Shown here: positions 32,687 through 41,212 of the stretch, one piece after another | Numbering within the stretch: position 1 is the stretch's first letter | How the letters are laid out: every line of letters starts with the position of its first letter | Source: Candidatus Latescibacterota bacterium | GTDB lineage: Bacteria > Latescibacterota > UBA2968 | Assembly: GCA_022823725.1 (NCBI GenBank) | Contig: JAJEHL010000050.1 | Span: 62,001 to 126,000, forward strand | Length of the DNA stretch: 64,000 nucleotides | Direction of reading: 5' to 3' | The notes under the pieces: model-generated | Databases searched by the model: none | What the model was told of the DNA's origin: nothing | Seen by the model: the letters and a program-made list of their open reading frames with translations, nothing else | Position numbers and translations under genes: made by a program

Positions 32687-34345
32687 TTATGCGTTGTGCC
32701 ATGAATCTTCCCAGGGTGTGCCTTCGAGCGATTCTGCAGCGATATCCCGGGGACTGCGTTTGAGCACTTGTTCTTTGTATTTTTCAATGCTCAATTTGTC
32801 GGGCGATAAGGAGGTTTCTTTGCTGATGGCGCGGGTAAATGCTTCGGCAAAGGTTTCGATGCTGTTTTTTTCCTCATCGGGTAAGCGTTTGGGCCAGGGA
32901 CCGTCGTTGAGATTGACCGTGCGACATTCTTCTTCTGTGGGAATGCGGTCTGGACCAGGAAAAGAGCGGAGCCTATTGTCGTCAAACGAATCGCTCAGGC
33001 CGTGTTGTCGTTCCCAGGCGATTATTTGGTTGCGAAATTTTGCCGCCAGTGCGGGGCGTTCGGCGATGAGATTGTGCTGTTCGTGTGGATCGTTTTCAAG
33101 GTCGTAGAGTTCTTCGATGCCGCCGTGGGCAAAAAAGGCGTATTTGTGTTTTTGGTTGCGCGCTGAAATCCAGCGTCCTTTGCCCTTGCCGTAGTCTATA
33201 ATTTCGAATTCTCGAGGCTGGGATAGGCCGCCACCTGTTGTGCCCAGGAGATTTGAGCCAGGCAATGAGCCGTGTTCTTCTGGGTAATGGAGACCGAGTT
33301 CCTCAATGAGAGTCGGAAAGAAGTCGAGCAGGCTGACGAGGTCATCGCATTGTTGACCTGCTCGCGTTTTACCGGGCCAGCGGAGGAGATATGGAATGCG
33401 GACGGAGGACTCATAAGGGCAGTTTTTTTGCGACAGGCCGTGTTCGCCCATCATTTCACCGTGGTCTGAGACAAAGAGGACGACCGTGTTATCGGATAGG
33501 CCAAGGGTTTCGAGTTCATTCATAATGCGACCGATGCCGTCGTCAACATGAGAGATGAGGCCATAGTAAAGGGCGCGCAGGCGGCGCAGGCGGTCGGGGT
33601 CGCGGTGGGCACCGTCCAGACGTCCGCGGCTGCCGTAAAAATTGGGTGGCAGGGTTTCGATAGGGCGGTCGGCAAAGGGGGGGAGTTCCATGTTGTCGGG
33701 GTCATACATGTCGTCATACGGTTCGCAGGGCGCAAAGGGCGGGTGCGGTGATATCCAGGAACTCCACAGAAAGAAGGGTTGATTGGCGCGGTAGCGCGTG
33801 TGTTCGCGGAGAAAGTCAATGGATCGGTCGGCGACCCAGGTATTTTTGTGGTGTTCAACGGGTATGCCACAGGTTTGGGGCTGGAAAAAGAGCAGGTCGC
33901 GAATGCCTTTGGGAAATCGGGTGCGGACGCCGTTTTCTCGCAGATATCGGAGGTAGTCATCATCGACCCGGTGATCGATGCATTCTTCCATGGTGAGGAG
34001 GTTTCGGAGGCCGTAGTGCCGACCGTGAAAGTGCATTTTTCCAATGCCCTGTGTCCAGTACCTGGCGCGCAGTAGAAGCGTCATGATGGTGGGGAGTTCG
34101 GGTAAGGGACCAGGTAGCGCACTGTTGTCTGTCCAGTGGTGCCGGGACATTCTGTGACCGGTAATAAAGCTCATGCGCGCGGCAACGCAGACGGGGGTGG
34201 GGGTGACTGCCTGCGTGAAGCGAACACCTGAATTGGCGAGTGCGTCGAGGTTGGGCGTGTGGATTGTTGTATTTCCAGCGCAGCCCAGGGCATCTGCGCG
34301 CTGCTGGTCGGTCATAAGGATGAGAATATTGGGGCGATCAGGCAT
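32687..34345 (-). CDS. sulfatase (alkaline-phosphatase superfamily), guaB operon
   Basis: A 552-residue type-I sulfatase. It opens with [18 protein letters not shown] (metal ligand Asp13). The formylglycine site is [10 protein letters not shown] with Cys53 (CxAxR, the permitted variant of CxPxR). [16 protein letters not shown] gives the second metal pair, and [12 protein letters not shown] contributes substrate-side residues. It hydrolyses a sulfate ester after Cys-to-formylglycine conversion. No signal peptide precedes the catalytic start, so a cytoplasmic place is predicted. The chosen ATG is 4 nt after the guaB stop; the longer open frame only overlaps guaB. At 552 residues it is somewhat longer than the other sulfatases here. 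Confidence 0.93.
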
Positions 34346-34349
34346 GGTG

Positions 34350-35846
<1,497 letters not shown>

Positions 35847-35900
35847 CTATAGCAAAGTCGAGAAAGTAGATGAGGATTATTTTTCCCCTTTAGATAGAAT

Positions 35901-35937
35901 ACAAAAATCCCCTTGACGCAGACACATCAAGGGGATT
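35901..35937 (-). terminator. intrinsic terminator before guaB
   Basis: Perfect 11-bp arms AATCCCCTTGA (35906-35916) and TCAAGGGGATT (35927-35937) with a 10-nt loop. On the minus strand the stem runs into five T. It lies between a strong promoter and the guaB start codon. Confidence 0.88.
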
Positions 35938-36061
35938 CAAGCGGCAGGCACAGTTACACACTCCGCTCCGAGGCTTGGCGGAGGTGTAAACCGCCGTTTT
36001 TTTCGGCAACAATAAGTGTAAAGCCTCTGGTACATGAGTTTCTCCAAATCGCGACTATATT
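35901..36061 (-). ncRNA. candidate structured leader or small RNA upstream of guaB
   Basis: A transcript from the promoter at 36067-36095 to the terminator at 35901 would be about 160 nt. It can form GCCG-A7-CGGC, then a longer stem in which TTACA-C-CTCCGC pairs with GCGGAG-TG-TGTAA. An earlier GAGGCTT can instead pair with AAGCCTC in that stem's loop, giving mutually competing folds. That, plus a terminator just before guaB, suggests either a riboswitch-like attenuator or an independent small RNA (6S-like size). No known class was recognised. The rest of the 661-nt gap to 36496 holds one promoter on the plus strand and no gene. Confidence 0.5.
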
Positions 36062-36066
36062 TGCCA

Positions 36067-36095
36067 AATATACCGCTTCTCTTTTATTCTGTCAA
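36067..36095 (-). promoter_or_regulatory. strong sigma-70 promoter of the guaB leader
   Basis: On the minus strand, TTGACA (36090-36095) and TATATT (36067-36072) are separated by exactly 17 nt. The start is predicted near 36060. Confidence 0.8.
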
Positions 36096-36333
36096 TATGT
36101 GTGAAATAGATTTTGTTTGCAATGGTCTCTGGAAAAGGGGTTGACACCGGTCTTTACGGCTTATATTTTTTATTTTTTATTCACTCGGATTTCTAATATT
36201 GCCATTATTCATTAGTTGTTTTAAATTTTTAAGACCGAGATAATTAACACCCCTCATAACGCATTGTTGCAGTGTTGGATATACCGGGAACTCTATTGAT
36301 TTATATTTCGTTTAATTTGAAGCAGATTTTGGC

Positions 36334-36362
36334 TTGACAGGGTTTTTTTCATTCATTAGATT
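36334..36362 (+). promoter_or_regulatory. sigma-70 promoter of the TPR-exbB-exbD-tonB operon
   Basis: TTGACA (36334-36339) and TAGATT (36357-36362) are separated by 17 nt. The leader to the TPR gene would be about 128 nt. Confidence 0.7.
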
Positions 36363-36496
36363 CTTCAGCCCTGCTACCTGTAATCGCATTATTTTTTGTT
36401 GTGAGTTATATTGTTATTAACAGGGAAGCGGCTTGTCTAAACTAAGTGTCGTTACTCTGCGAATTTTCATCCCATATAGTTATGGAGACTGGGACC

Positions 36497-37693
36497 ATGA
36501 TTTTGGATTTGAAATTCCGATCAGGTTTTTTGGCTTTGTTCTGCGGTTTTTTGGTTTTTGGTGCAGCGTCACTTTGTTTTGCCGAAGAAGGCGAGACCGA
36601 GATGACACAGGCGGATTCTATTAAGAGGGCCGGTCAACATTTGGGTTGGGGGGATCGGTATCTCAAGAGCAAGCAATATGAAGACGCCGAAACACAGTTG
36701 CTCAAATCATGGGGATTTAATCCCAGAAGAGCAGCAACGGCTCGACGCCTGGGAAAATTGTATAATGAAACAGAAAAATATGAGGATGCTATTCAGTGGT
36801 ATCAAAAAGCCATTGAACTTGAACCCAAGAGCAAGTACACCAGGGGGGCACATTTTGCCTTAGCTGGTATCTACATTATACTGGAACAGCCCGAGAAAGC
36901 CATTGGGCATTATGAAGCTTTGCTGGCATTTAACCTCGAGCCCGAGGAAAAAATTAAATACTATCATGCGCTGGTCAGTTTGAATGTTGAAACTGAAGAA
37001 TATGAAAAAGCATTGGAGTATGCCAAGAAGTGGGGTGAATTGGCTCCCGATGAGCCCGAAGTGCGGGATATGATTGGTAAATTACATCTGCGAACAGGCG
37101 GTGAGGACGAAGCTCTGGCCGAAATGGAGAAAGTGCTGGAGATAAATCCCGACGATTATGCTACGCTGGAAAAATTGGCGGGTATGTATGAGCGACGAGG
37201 CGATGATGATAAAGCCTTTGATGCCTTTGAAAAATTATATCAAAATGATAACTCGAGTGTTTTCTTTTTGGAAGAGACCATTAAATTGGGCAAGATGATA
37301 GGAAAATCCAAAAGCTGGATCGTCGGTCGGCTTGAAAAATTATACGACATGGATCCCGAGAATTTGGGGGTGATCGAAGAATTAGCCGAGTTGACCGGGA
37401 GCCTCAAATGGGTCAATAAAGGTCTGAAACAAGACCCAAACAACGGTCTGTACCCCTATATGAGGGGCAACCATTATTTTAACAGGTGGGAAAATTCAAG
37501 TGCAAAACAGGATTCGATCAATGCCTTGACCTGGTATAGAAGGGCGTTGAAAGATCCGATGTGGAAAGGCAATGCCAACGCAATGATCCAAACGCTTGAT
37601 CCACCCCTGACTGAAGAAGAGAAGAAGCGTCGAGAATTTTTTGAAGGTAGCAAACAGAAAAAGGAGGAGGTGGAAACAGAAGGTAAGAAGTAG
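36497..37693 (+). CDS. exported TPR-repeat protein of the TonB operon
   Basis: A 398-residue protein with an N-terminal signal (about 1-28, ending AASLCFAEEG), followed by tetratricopeptide repeats over about 40-250 (YLKSKQYEDAETQLLKSWGF, YNETEKYEDAIQWYQKAIEL, LKTGGEDEALAEMEKVL-type units). A helical, lysine/glutamate-rich C-terminus follows. TPR arrays bind partner proteins. It is the first gene of a unit with exbB, two exbD genes and tonB and may organise that complex in the periplasm. The ATG at 36497 gives the cleanest signal peptide; an upstream in-frame ATG at 36482 is possible. Confidence 0.85.
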   Translation: MILDLKFRSGFLALFCGFLVFGAASLCFAEEGETEMTQADSIKRAGQHLGWGDRYLKSKQYEDAETQLLKSWGFNPRRAATARRLGKLYNETEKYEDAIQWYQKAIELEPKSKYTRGAHFALAGIYIILEQPEKAIGHYEALLAFNLEPEEKIKYYHALVSLNVETEEYEKALEYAKKWGELAPDEPEVRDMIGKLHLRTGGEDEALAEMEKVLEINPDDYATLEKLAGMYERRGDDDKAFDAFEKLYQNDNSSVFFLEETIKLGKMIGKSKSWIVGRLEKLYDMDPENLGVIEELAELTGSLKWVNKGLKQDPNNGLYPYMRGNHYFNRWENSSAKQDSINALTWYRRALKDPMWKGNANAMIQTLDPPLTEEEKKRREFFEGSKQKKEEVETEGKK

Positions 37694-37753
37694 AAGGTTC
37701 TATGTTGTTAATCCATTTTTCGCAATTCATAACCTAACTTCGGGAGATGTGGC

Positions 37754-38374
37754 ATGGTTGATCTTTTTATTAAAGGCGGAAACTTTATGTATCCGTTGCT
37801 GGTGATGTTGTTTTTTGGTGTTGTGGTGATGATTGAGCGCTTTTACACGCTTTTTAAGGCACATATCAATGCCAAAGAGTTTATGGTAGAGCTTCAGGAT
37901 GCCCTCAAGCAAAATGGGCCAGAAGGTGCTGCCGAGTTGTGTTCCAATACGCGCGGCCCGGTCGCCACGGTGTTGCATGCAGGCCTGTTGCGTTTAGACC
38001 GCGGTATTGAGCATGTGGAAAAATCGATTGAGGAATCCGGCGCTATCGAAATGGCTTTTCTCGAGCGTGGTCTCGTGTGGCTTTCCACTGTCGCAAACCT
38101 GGCACCTCTTGTCGGTTTTCTGGGCACCGTGTCGGGGATGATCCGGGCGTTTAACGATATTGCCGCTGCTGGCGATGTTGATCCCAGTGTTGTGGCTGGC
38201 GGTATTTCTGAAGCTTTGATTACAACGGCTTCGGGCCTGGTGGTTGCTATCCCGGTGCAGGCTGCATACAACTTCTTCCTGTCAAAAATTGACAAGATCA
38301 TCATCGATCTCCAGGAAAGCTCCAATCAATTTGTCGATGACCTGATTCAGTTGGGCTACGGCAAGGAGGACTAA
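37754..38374 (+). CDS. exbB: ExbB/TolQ/MotA-family proton channel protein
   Basis: A 206-residue inner-membrane protein with three helices: MYPLLVMLFFGVVVMIERFY near the start, then LVWLSTVANLAPLVGFLGTV and GISEALITTASGLVVAIPVQ in the second half. The last two contain the conserved Pro-Leu-hydrophobic-Gly-Leu-hydrophobic-Gly-Thr-Val block and the Thr-rich pore helix of the family. It forms the proton channel with ExbD that powers TonB. It lacks the long N-terminal periplasmic domain seen in some paralogues. GGGAG lies about 9 nt before the ATG. Followed after 3 nt by exbD. Confidence 0.94.
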   Translation: MVDLFIKGGNFMYPLLVMLFFGVVVMIERFYTLFKAHINAKEFMVELQDALKQNGPEGAAELCSNTRGPVATVLHAGLLRLDRGIEHVEKSIEESGAIEMAFLERGLVWLSTVANLAPLVGFLGTVSGMIRAFNDIAAAGDVDPSVVAGGISEALITTASGLVVAIPVQAAYNFFLSKIDKIIIDLQESSNQFVDDLIQLGYGKED

Positions 38375-38377
38375 GAC

Positions 38378-38782
38378 ATGGCCCTTCAGCGACGCGAAAA
38401 ATCTTCACCCGAAATCCCCACCGGATCTATGGCAGATATCGTGTTTTTGTTGCTGGTATTTTTTCTGGTGACAACCACGATGAACCAGGATAAGGGTATT
38501 GGTATGCATTTGCCCCCGGCTGGCGAGTCCAAGAAAATCCAGAAGAAAAATATTTGCAATGTCTGGGTCAATATCGATGGGGAGATTCTCATCAATTTGG
38601 AACAAAGTGTACCGCTGAATCTGCTTCGAGCAGATATTGAGCAGCGATTGGCGCAAAATGAGAAGCTGATCGTTTCATTAAAGGCCGACGAAGAAACGCC
38701 CTATGAGAAATTTATCGATGTGCTCGACGAAATTAAATTATCAGGGGCAGATAAAATTTCGCTCGCCTCGCCCAGTGAGTGA
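38378..38782 (+). CDS. exbD: ExbD/TolR-family protein, first copy
   Basis: A 134-residue single-pass protein: a short cytoplasmic N-terminus, then GSMADIVFLLLVFFLVTTTM with the essential membrane Asp, and a periplasmic domain (about 45-134) with VWVNIDGEILINLE and VSLKADEETPYEKFIDVLDEIK, typical of ExbD. It couples proton flow through ExbB to TonB. The second copy follows 15 nt later and shares IPTGSMADI but differs in the periplasmic part, suggesting a heterodimer in the channel. Confidence 0.93.
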   Translation: MALQRREKSSPEIPTGSMADIVFLLLVFFLVTTTMNQDKGIGMHLPPAGESKKIQKKNICNVWVNIDGEILINLEQSVPLNLLRADIEQRLAQNEKLIVSLKADEETPYEKFIDVLDEIKLSGADKISLASPSE

Positions 38783-38797
38783 GTTCAGGAGGTTTTC

Positions 38798-39205
38798 ATG
38801 AATTTTAAGAAAAAGGGTGGTGTCTCACACAGCATCCCAACCGGATCTATGGCCGACATTACTTTTTTGCTGCTCATTTTCTTTATGGTCTCTACGGTTT
38901 TTGTCCGCTACCGCGTGACGGGCATTATTATGCCCAAGGCCGAAAAAATTGAAGAGCTTAAGAAACGTCGCCACATCAACTATTTATGGGTTTCTGCTGA
39001 TCGCAAAATCTATATTGACGACAAGTTGGCGAATCTCGATCAAGTAGCCGGGATTTTTTACGATCGCCGCGTCAAAGATCCCCGTATGGTTGTGTCACTC
39101 AAATGTGACTATCGCGCGCCTTATGGATTGATCAGCAGAGTGATGGAAGAATTGCGCGAGGCCGATGCGTTGCGCATCAACTTTGCGACTAACCGAGAGG
39201 GGTAA
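38798..39205 (+). CDS. exbD: ExbD/TolR-family protein, second copy
   Basis: A 135-residue paralogue of the preceding protein. GSMADITFLLLIFFMVSTVF holds the membrane Asp; the periplasmic domain includes INYLWVSADRKIYIDDKLAN and YGLISRVMEELREADALRI. Dual-exbD operons are known in several phyla and usually serve a dedicated TonB. CAGGAGG lies about 7 nt before the ATG; tonB starts 3 nt after the stop. Confidence 0.93.
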   Translation: MNFKKKGGVSHSIPTGSMADITFLLLIFFMVSTVFVRYRVTGIIMPKAEKIEELKKRRHINYLWVSADRKIYIDDKLANLDQVAGIFYDRRVKDPRMVVSLKCDYRAPYGLISRVMEELREADALRINFATNREG

Positions 39206-39208
39206 GCT

Positions 39209-39856
39209 ATGGCAATGATTCGGGGAAAAGCACCAGAAGCCGATTTGCGACGAACGTATAATAAGGTTTTTGGATATTGTACGTTGATCACGTTTGTCCT
39301 GCATACCGCCGTGGCTGTGATTTTTCCAACTTTTGAAGCCTCTGCGAGTGATCGCAAGAAGAAACAGATTATTATTGAAAATGTAGATATTCCAGAAACC
39401 CAACAGATCAAACGTCCGCCACCGCCGCCGCGGCCTGCTGTGCCAATTGAGACAGAGAGCGACGATGTGCCCGACGATGTGACTATTGAGAGCACAGATC
39501 TCGATTTTGACGATGCAATGGTCGATATGCCACCGCCACCGCCGCCGGGTTCACAAGAGGAAGAAGAAGAAATTTTCGAGTTTTTTATGGTTGAACAAAA
39601 ACCAAAAGTCATAAAGCAGGTCAACCCTAAATATCCGGAAATCGCTCGCAAAGCCGGGTTGACTGGAAAAGTGTTTTTGAAGTTTTTGGTTGATAAGAGT
39701 GGTCGGGTAAGCAATGTGACCGTTCTCAGAGGTCAAGAAATTTTCCGGCAAGCGGCGATTGATGCTGTTCTGCAATTCAGGTTTGAACCAGCCCAACAAA
39801 ATGACAAGCCGGTTTCTGTTTGGATGACACAGCCGATGTCTTTCCGTCTGAATTGA
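39209..39856 (+). CDS. tonB: TonB-family energy transducer
   Basis: A 215-residue protein: a transmembrane helix at about 23-41 (YCTLITFVLHTAVAVIFP), a Pro-rich periplasmic spacer with two Pro runs separated by an acidic stretch, and a TonB C-terminal domain from about 128 (KQVNPKYPEIARKAGLTGKV, VSNVTVLRGQEIFRQAAIDA, FRFEPAQQNDKPV). It transmits proton-motive energy from ExbB/ExbD to outer-membrane partners. No TonB-dependent receptor is in the window. The operon ends with a strong terminator 17 nt downstream. Confidence 0.92.
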   Translation: MAMIRGKAPEADLRRTYNKVFGYCTLITFVLHTAVAVIFPTFEASASDRKKKQIIIENVDIPETQQIKRPPPPPRPAVPIETESDDVPDDVTIESTDLDFDDAMVDMPPPPPPGSQEEEEEIFEFFMVEQKPKVIKQVNPKYPEIARKAGLTGKVFLKFLVDKSGRVSNVTVLRGQEIFRQAAIDAVLQFRFEPAQQNDKPVSVWMTQPMSFRLN

Positions 39857-39873
39857 GGTGGAGTTTTATGATT

Positions 39874-39910
39874 AAAAGGCCATTGTGCAGGGCGTACAAT
39901 GGCCTTTTTT
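39874..39910 (+). terminator. terminator of the tonB operon
   Basis: Perfect 13-bp arms AAAAGGCCATTGT (39874-39886) and ACAATGGCCTTTT (39896-39908), a 9-nt loop and further T. Confidence 0.93.
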
Positions 39911-40018
39911 GTGTAAATATGTAAACAATACTTGACATATACGCCGAAATTTTACAATATATATTGCCTAATCCGAATTTTAAGTCTTTGTAAAGGTTCA
40001 AAATAGAGGAGATTTTCC

Positions 40019-41212
40019 ATGATGCGTTTCTTCTTTGCGATGCTTTCATTGTCTGTGCTAATGGCCGGTTCTGCCCTCGCACAGGGAGTGAGCCCCGAAT
40101 CCGCTGAAAAGTATAATGCTGGACAGGAATTATTCAAGAAACGGCAATTTCAAAGAGCACTCGTATCCTTTGAAGAGGCTGTAAAGATCGATGGCAAAAA
40201 CGCGCAGGCATATCGCGCGATGGGCACGACGTACAAAAAGTTGCGCAATTACAAAAAGGCCATTGAAGCTTATCAAATGGCGACTTCAATTAAGTCGGAT
40301 TATGCAGCCGCTTATTTTGAAATGGGCGAATTGCAATTTCAGACCAAAGACTATAAAGGTGCCCAGGCCAGCATACAAAAGGTGCTGTCGATTGATCCCA
40401 GCTTTGAAGCAGATAAAACACGGGATATATTGAAGAAAGCCTATCTTCAAGAGGGCACTACATTGTTCAGGCGGCGCGATTACAAGGGTGCTGCGGCTCA
40501 GTATGAAAGTGCCACGCAAGTCGATCCTTCGGATGCGACCGTATTTTTCAATTTGGGACTGGCACATAGATATGCGCGCAGTGTAAATGCCGCGCGTGAA
40601 GCACTCGAAACAGCTATTGAGTTGAATCCGAACTATGGCAAAGCTCATCGCAGTTTGGGCGATCTCTTCAGGGCGACAGGAAAAAATAGCAGTGCAGCAA
40701 GGGCGTACTTAAAGGCGATTCAAGCCGATGCAAAAGATACGAGGTCTCGCCTGAATCTGGCAATAGTCTATCAGGCGATGAAGCAAAATAGCAAAGCGAT
40801 TTCCGTGCTTTCAAAAGCGGCACAGGTTGATCCTAAAAATGCGGATGTTCACACAGCACTTGGCAAGGCTTATGCAGATGGCAGGCAGTACACAAATTCT
40901 ATTGCTTCCTACAAAAGGGCACTGGGGATTAAGAATACTCCCGAGGCAAACTATCGGATAGCTGAACCTTATTTCGGACTCAAGCAATACCAAAATGCCA
41001 TCAGGCACGCCAATAGAGCACTGTCTGCGTCTAAATGGAGAGTGCCCGCCAATGTCATTCTGGGCGATTGTTATCGAGAGCTTGGTCAAAAAGAAAGAGC
41101 GATCGCGCACTACAAAAAAGGGGTCGCTAATCGCCAATACAAGAAATATTGTGAAGATCAGATAGATCGCATCCTCAATCCAATGGGCGGTGGAGAAGAA
41201 GAGGCACAGTAA
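40019..41212 (+). CDS. exported TPR-repeat protein downstream of tonB
   Basis: A 397-residue protein with a signal peptide (1-22, ending GSALAQ) and at least eight tetratricopeptide repeats over about 30-370, such as YNAGQELFKKRQFQRALVSF, YRAMGTTYKKLRNYKKAIEA, FNLGLAHRYARSVNAAREAL and HRSLGDLFRATGKNSSAARA. A Gly/Glu tail follows. It has its own unit: a terminator precedes it, and TTGACA at 39932 with a TACAAT-like -10 at sub-optimal spacing could be its promoter. A terminator follows. It is probably a periplasmic scaffold; co-location with the first TPR/TonB operon suggests a shared process. Confidence 0.86.
   Translation: MMRFFFAMLSLSVLMAGSALAQGVSPESAEKYNAGQELFKKRQFQRALVSFEEAVKIDGKNAQAYRAMGTTYKKLRNYKKAIEAYQMATSIKSDYAAAYFEMGELQFQTKDYKGAQASIQKVLSIDPSFEADKTRDILKKAYLQEGTTLFRRRDYKGAAAQYESATQVDPSDATVFFNLGLAHRYARSVNAAREALETAIELNPNYGKAHRSLGDLFRATGKNSSAARAYLKAIQADAKDTRSRLNLAIVYQAMKQNSKAISVLSKAAQVDPKNADVHTALGKAYADGRQYTNSIASYKRALGIKNTPEANYRIAEPYFGLKQYQNAIRHANRALSASKWRVPANVILGDCYRELGQKERAIAHYKKGVANRQYKKYCEDQIDRILNPMGGGEEEAQ

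Follow-up and report, generated by a model that had tools for sequence, protein, structure and literature searches.

A candidate ribosome-coupled transcription attenuator in the guaB leader of an order of Latescibacterota

Nucleotide-sensing attenuators that rely on a pausing polymerase and a coupled ribosome are well established for UTP (pyrBI) and have been reported for ATP (mgtM). In the Escherichia coli pyrE attenuator the upstream reading frame ends only a few base pairs ahead of the terminator, which is blocked when a ribosome stands close to it. In amino-acid attenuators the leader peptide frame ends more than 20 bp short of the terminator, and in pyrBI the terminator is located within the frame (PMC4824070). 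When the stop codon was moved to 5 bp before the terminator, termination fell from about 90% to under 10%, an effect that required translation (PMC4824070), and work on EF-P found that a ribosome slowed before the pyrL terminator leads to more termination (PMC5021804). A U-rich stretch in pyrBI and adenines in mgtM make polymerase speed nucleotide-dependent (PMC3641672). An earlier description of such an attenuator for guaB was not found in the published literature, for which open-access papers were searched.

The window analysed here comprises 64,000 nucleotides of a 5.3-Mb metagenome-assembled genome, the nearest named records of which are Candidatus Latescibacterota. A preliminary description of this DNA had placed a TTGACA-N17-TATATT promoter, a leader of about 160 nt and a terminator 67 nt before guaB, and these elements were borne out; it gave no strand and overlooked a short reading frame in the leader. 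Promoter, leader and terminator precede guaB and, like guaB itself, are encoded on the minus strand:

36067..36095, minus strand: sigma-70 type promoter TTGACA-N17-TATATT (TTGACA 36095-36090, 17-nt spacer, TATATT 36072-36067)
36042..36045, minus strand: Shine-Dalgarno sequence GGAG, 6 nt before the leader ATG
35937..36035, minus strand: leader reading frame of 32 codons, ATG at 36035, stop codon TGA at 35939-35937, peptide MYQRLYTYCCRKKRRFTPPPSLGAECVTVPAA
35956..35991, minus strand: hairpin inside the leader frame, UUACAC.CUCCGC with GCGGAG.UGUGUAA, conserved within the genus only
35944..35974, minus strand: G-enriched stretch of the transcript, own sequence GGAGCGGAGUGUG, putative GTP-dependent pause region
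35898..35938, minus strand: intrinsic terminator (putative attenuator), stem core CCCCTTGA/TCAAGGGG followed by a T run
35846-35841, minus strand: Shine-Dalgarno sequence AAAGGA of guaB
34350..35834, minus strand: guaB, IMP dehydrogenase (PF00478, 3.1e-163; CBS domains), the presumed controlled gene

The distance of 67 nt is that from the terminator end to the annotated guaB frame (35837); the likelier start codon is the ATG at 35834. A sulfatase gene (32690-34345, minus strand) begins 4 nt past the stop codon of guaB and is possibly regulated together with it; a sulfatase-like gene occurs within about 70 nt after guaB in 6 of 7 congener loci. Two promoter-like sites on the plus strand, at 36141-36169 and 36334-36362 (TTGACA-N17-TATTTT and TTGACA-N17-TAGATT), both face a divergent TPR-ExbB-ExbD-ExbD-TonB-TPR gene cluster at 36446-41212.

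Expression of guaB is probably controlled by ribosome-coupled transcription attenuation in its leader, as in pyrBI. Sequence comparison establishes the promoter, the frame and its stop position, the terminator, the G-enrichment and the link to guaB; translation of the leader frame, control by read-through and GTP as the signal are what we infer. Transcription would start at the strong promoter, and RNA polymerase would copy a leader coding for a peptide of about 30 residues with its own ribosome-binding site, the stop codon of which falls at or just inside the 5' arm of the intrinsic terminator. A ribosome close behind the polymerase would cover the 5' arm and keep the hairpin open, and guaB would be transcribed; with the polymerase running ahead, the terminator would form and guaB would be switched off. 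GTP is the likeliest signal: when it is scarce, the polymerase would slow while copying G-rich sequence located 10-40 nt ahead of the terminator, the ribosome would catch up and IMP dehydrogenase would be made; at high GTP transcription would stop at the terminator. The more specific proposal, a GTP-sensing ribosome-coupled attenuator as the guanine counterpart of the UTP-sensing pyrBI leader, is put forward tentatively, as a possibility that falls somewhat short of probable.

The arrangement resembles that of E. coli pyrBI (pyrL) in its promoter, leader of about 160 nt, peptide frame reaching the terminator and nucleotide-biased tract shortly before the terminator, as well as in the position of the terminator just before a gene of nucleotide synthesis. 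The two differ in the enzyme that is controlled (IMP dehydrogenase here, aspartate transcarbamylase in pyrBI), in the tract, which is G-rich in guaB and U-rich in pyrBI, and in the stop codon, located at the terminator start in the guaB leader and beyond the terminator in pyrBI; peptide and sequence are unrelated, and the response to GTP is a prediction from sequence. A frame stop near the terminator is a feature in common with E. coli pyrE, in which, however, the frame is the full upstream gene rph, whereas in guaB it is a dedicated leader peptide. The Salmonella mgtCBR leader (mgtM), which responds to ATP, similarly combines a short frame, a tract of the sensed nucleotide (for guaB, presumably GTP) and a poorly conserved peptide (PMC3641672), but mgtM uses alternative stem-loops and acts in the opposite sense, high ATP raising expression. 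A leader peptide that would be translated, followed by a terminator, is also typical of trp-type attenuators, from which the guaB leader differs by having neither conserved control codons nor a consistently predicted antiterminator and by its stop codon less than 20 nt from the terminator. In cyanobacteria the small RNA Yfr1 is encoded between guaB and trxA (PMC1242208) and thus likewise lies beside guaB, but it is downstream of that gene, about 55 nt long and non-coding.

The leader promoter matches 11 of 12 consensus positions and is the best among 8 promoter-like sites found within 1.4 kb around it, where shuffled sequence would give 2.5; the leader transcript would start near 36060. TTGACA with a 17-nt spacer is present in all 21 genomes of the order that were sampled, and the arrangement as a whole is kept in ten congeners of the window's genome and in members of seven further genera. 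Within the genus the promoter diverges slowly, at 0.17 changes per site compared with 0.69-1.16 in non-coding flanks, and divergence of the terminator is about 0.2 changes per site, as in the promoter. No promoter scoring 9/12 or better occurs in the interval from terminator to guaB, so expression of guaB most likely depends on read-through of the terminator.

The terminator stem has 15 bp (35938-35905), and over 11 divergent sequences 96.9% of its cells are paired, with a variable loop and a basal pair that is changed on both sides. The pattern CCCCTTGA-N3-14-TCAAGGGG was searched in the 21 genomes together with the reversed pattern as a control. An exact match was found in 18 of them, once per genome in 17 and twice in G020, the guaB of which is likewise found on two contigs; the other three (G011, G014 and G016) carry a slightly diverged copy at guaB. 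Every copy is located directly upstream of guaB and the reversed pattern gave 0 matches in the 21 genomes, so the arrangement is not due to chance. The complete layout of TTGACA-N17 promoter, leader, CCCCTTGA/TCAAGGGG terminator and guaB is kept in 8/8 sampled genera of this Latescibacterota order.

In the class-level outgroup G021 the promoter is present, but the hairpin is not followed by a T run. Outside the order the arrangement is no longer seen: the guaB leaders of families f5, f7 and f8 of the phylum lack it, a tRNA-like sequence taking its place in f8 and different sequence in f5 and f7. When 79 upstream regions were scanned, only 4 loci showed every element, and all 4 belong to this order; because the scan required a strong ribosome-binding signal, it misses some members of the order. 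The arrangement was not found at about 70 guaB loci of other phyla. The sister family f4 (G022-G046) has no close guaB and was left out of the comparison; its distant IMPDH-like protein, 35-38% identical to the guaB product, is possibly a different type of IMP dehydrogenase or a GMP reductase. At guaA no comparable leader was seen, and in the window's genome this gene closely follows another gene. Upstream of pyrB of the same genomes (L150-L154) a promoter and then a strong terminator stand directly before the gene, about 120 nt upstream of locus position 1501, with an ATG within about 15-20 nt of the -10 hexamer in all five; this pyrB leader may be a second, shorter attenuator.

The short reading frame recurs throughout the order. 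Each of the 21 genomes has a counterpart of 27-40 codons whose start lies 95-133 nt upstream of the terminator and whose stop codon is placed no more than 16 nt ahead of the terminator's 5' arm and no more than 8 nt into it; in the window the TGA stands 2 nt ahead of the terminator's CCCC. Start, ribosome-binding signal and stop position are kept across the 8 genera, with at least 4 matching bases in the Shine-Dalgarno-like signal of 8 of the 11 representative genomes and only 3 in G011, G012 and G014, which makes the signal weak in three genera. Length differences relative to the window's frame are 3, 6, 9, 12, 15 and 24 nt, all multiples of 3, whereas the flanking segments vary by amounts that are not, including a 4-nt insertion right after the stop codon in G005. 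Since such a frame arises in shuffled leaders with a chance of 0.09-0.31 per genome, the case for it rests on recurrence among related genera, and agreement of eight genera by chance is unlikely, although these genera share ancestry. Within the genus the frame accumulates 0.45 changes per site compared with 0.69-1.16 in three non-coding stretches. The codon-position signal is weak (12, 10 and 20 changes at positions 1, 2 and 3; p 0.14), and a second genus has a pN/pS of 0.8, compared with about 0.5 in this one. The constraint therefore bears chiefly on the existence of a frame with a suitable length and stop position. The presence of the frame shifts the proposed mechanism from alternative RNA pairing to ribosome-coupled attenuation, and a stop codon less than 20 nt from the terminator in every genome makes an attenuator that would act by ribosome occlusion the best reading.

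The peptide itself could have a role, as in an arrest-peptide attenuator, in which the nascent chain would sense a metabolite (e.g. a guanine nucleotide) or stall the ribosome as the end of the peptide is approached, and a ribosome halted in this way would block the terminator in the manner of TnaC- or Erm-type leaders. This is considered unlikely, but it is favoured by the pN/pS value in the genus and by the features that family f1 peptides have in common, namely RK(K)RR, then proline-rich residues and later Cys-Val-Thr. Such likeness of peptide parts in one family is not needed by pure coupling and counts against it. Conversely, the peptides cannot be aligned across the order (e.g. MATKLPNRDFASHAGGLSCCYQNPGEAGYGLTQTP in G020) and the final residues before the stop vary even inside family f1, which argues against an arrest peptide.

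The G content of the transcript between 40 and 10 nt before the terminator is 0.41, compared with 0.30 over the leader, a value that was reached in 0/5000 shuffles, and GUGUG occurs in this interval in 6 of 10 representatives. Matches to the elemental pause consensus (5-6 of 6) are no better than chance (p 0.09-0.84). This bias points towards GTP, in which the guaB pathway ends, with pausing of the polymerase when GTP is low as the suggested signal. The G-enrichment could instead reflect codons or hairpins; part of it may come from hairpins because the first half of the region is C-rich, although the hairpins in this region are not unusually stable outside the genus.

A different way to read the locus is that the leader frame constitutes a small-protein gene in its own right, complete with promoter and terminator, and that guaB is transcribed from another promoter. 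The element is indeed a complete transcription unit with a constraint pattern on the frame in the genus, and in three genomes the gap between terminator and guaB reaches 255-269 nt. Such a gene is nevertheless quite improbable, given that the peptides of different genera are no longer recognisably alike and have no counterpart in Pfam, that the element is always directly upstream of guaB and that no good promoter follows the terminator.

RNA structure was considered as well. Folded alone, the leader is more stable than all 200 shuffles (z -4.25). The preliminary description had opposed two pairings, GAGGCTT with AAGCCTC and a TTACA..CTCCGC stem, and proposed an attenuator or riboswitch responding to nucleotides, or an unlinked small RNA. 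The first helix can be formed by the sequence, yet it was rejected, as it displays no covariation and is broken in three congeners. The second corresponds to the hairpin inside the leader frame, in which 98.5% of the cells are paired in the genus and 8 of 12 pairs are invariant; in the other genera the equivalent region is not unusually structured (mean z -0.6), and a conserved pause hairpin is thus clear in the genus only. For pairing of the terminator 5' arm before the 3' arm is made, no consistent antiterminator was predicted across genomes, the mean pairing of this arm being 0.17-0.68 with a pattern that varies between genomes. Rfam covariance models, riboswitches and 6S included, gave chance matches only, both at the gathering score and at E-values up to 5. 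The 6S RNA model (RF00013) had no match in this genome or anywhere in the order (the genome and 59 relatives were searched), and a 6S identity does not fit the leader; the order may lack 6S RNA or have a form too diverged for the model to detect. Weak, below-threshold 6S matches occur in three genomes of other families of the phylum (L120, L121 and L122).

A non-coding element, either a new riboswitch or a trans-acting small RNA in which the frame is fortuitous, would explain the stable fold and the hairpin kept before the terminator in the genus. There is little chance that this is correct: the genera have in common a start, a ribosome-binding signal and a stop position but little leader structure or sequence besides the terminator, no Rfam family was matched and the alternative helix lacks covariation. 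From the initial proposals, then, the attenuator fits best and riboswitch-type alternative pairing does not, while the constant position of the element immediately upstream of guaB and its constrained frame speak against an unlinked small RNA. Conservation in related guaB leaders extends to the promoter throughout the order and to the terminator across genera, and that of the leader hairpin ends at the genus. Amino-acid attenuation of the trp type, in which starvation would stall the ribosome at control codons and switch alternative RNA structures, is very improbable: Arg, Pro and Cys are present in 10/10 representative peptides and PPP and RKKRR runs occur in the genus, but none of the amino acids forms a run that is shared by the different genera (G020 has a single Arg), the distance from stop to terminator is below 20 nt in every genome as against the criterion of more than 20 (PMC4824070), no consistent antiterminator is predicted and guaB has no amino-acid product.

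If the GTP-sensing attenuator proposed here is correct, it would represent a guanine version of the pyrBI-type mechanism on guaB, the committed step of GTP synthesis, and would add a GTP sensor that requires neither a regulatory protein nor an aptamer. Pausing at G residues would set the synthesis of IMP dehydrogenase, tying the supply of GTP to the transcription and translation rates of the cell, in a phylum that is uncultured and about whose regulation hardly anything is known. It would also mean that pyrBI-type attenuators can be recognised by comparison, through a short frame with a fixed stop at the terminator rather than through a conserved RNA structure.
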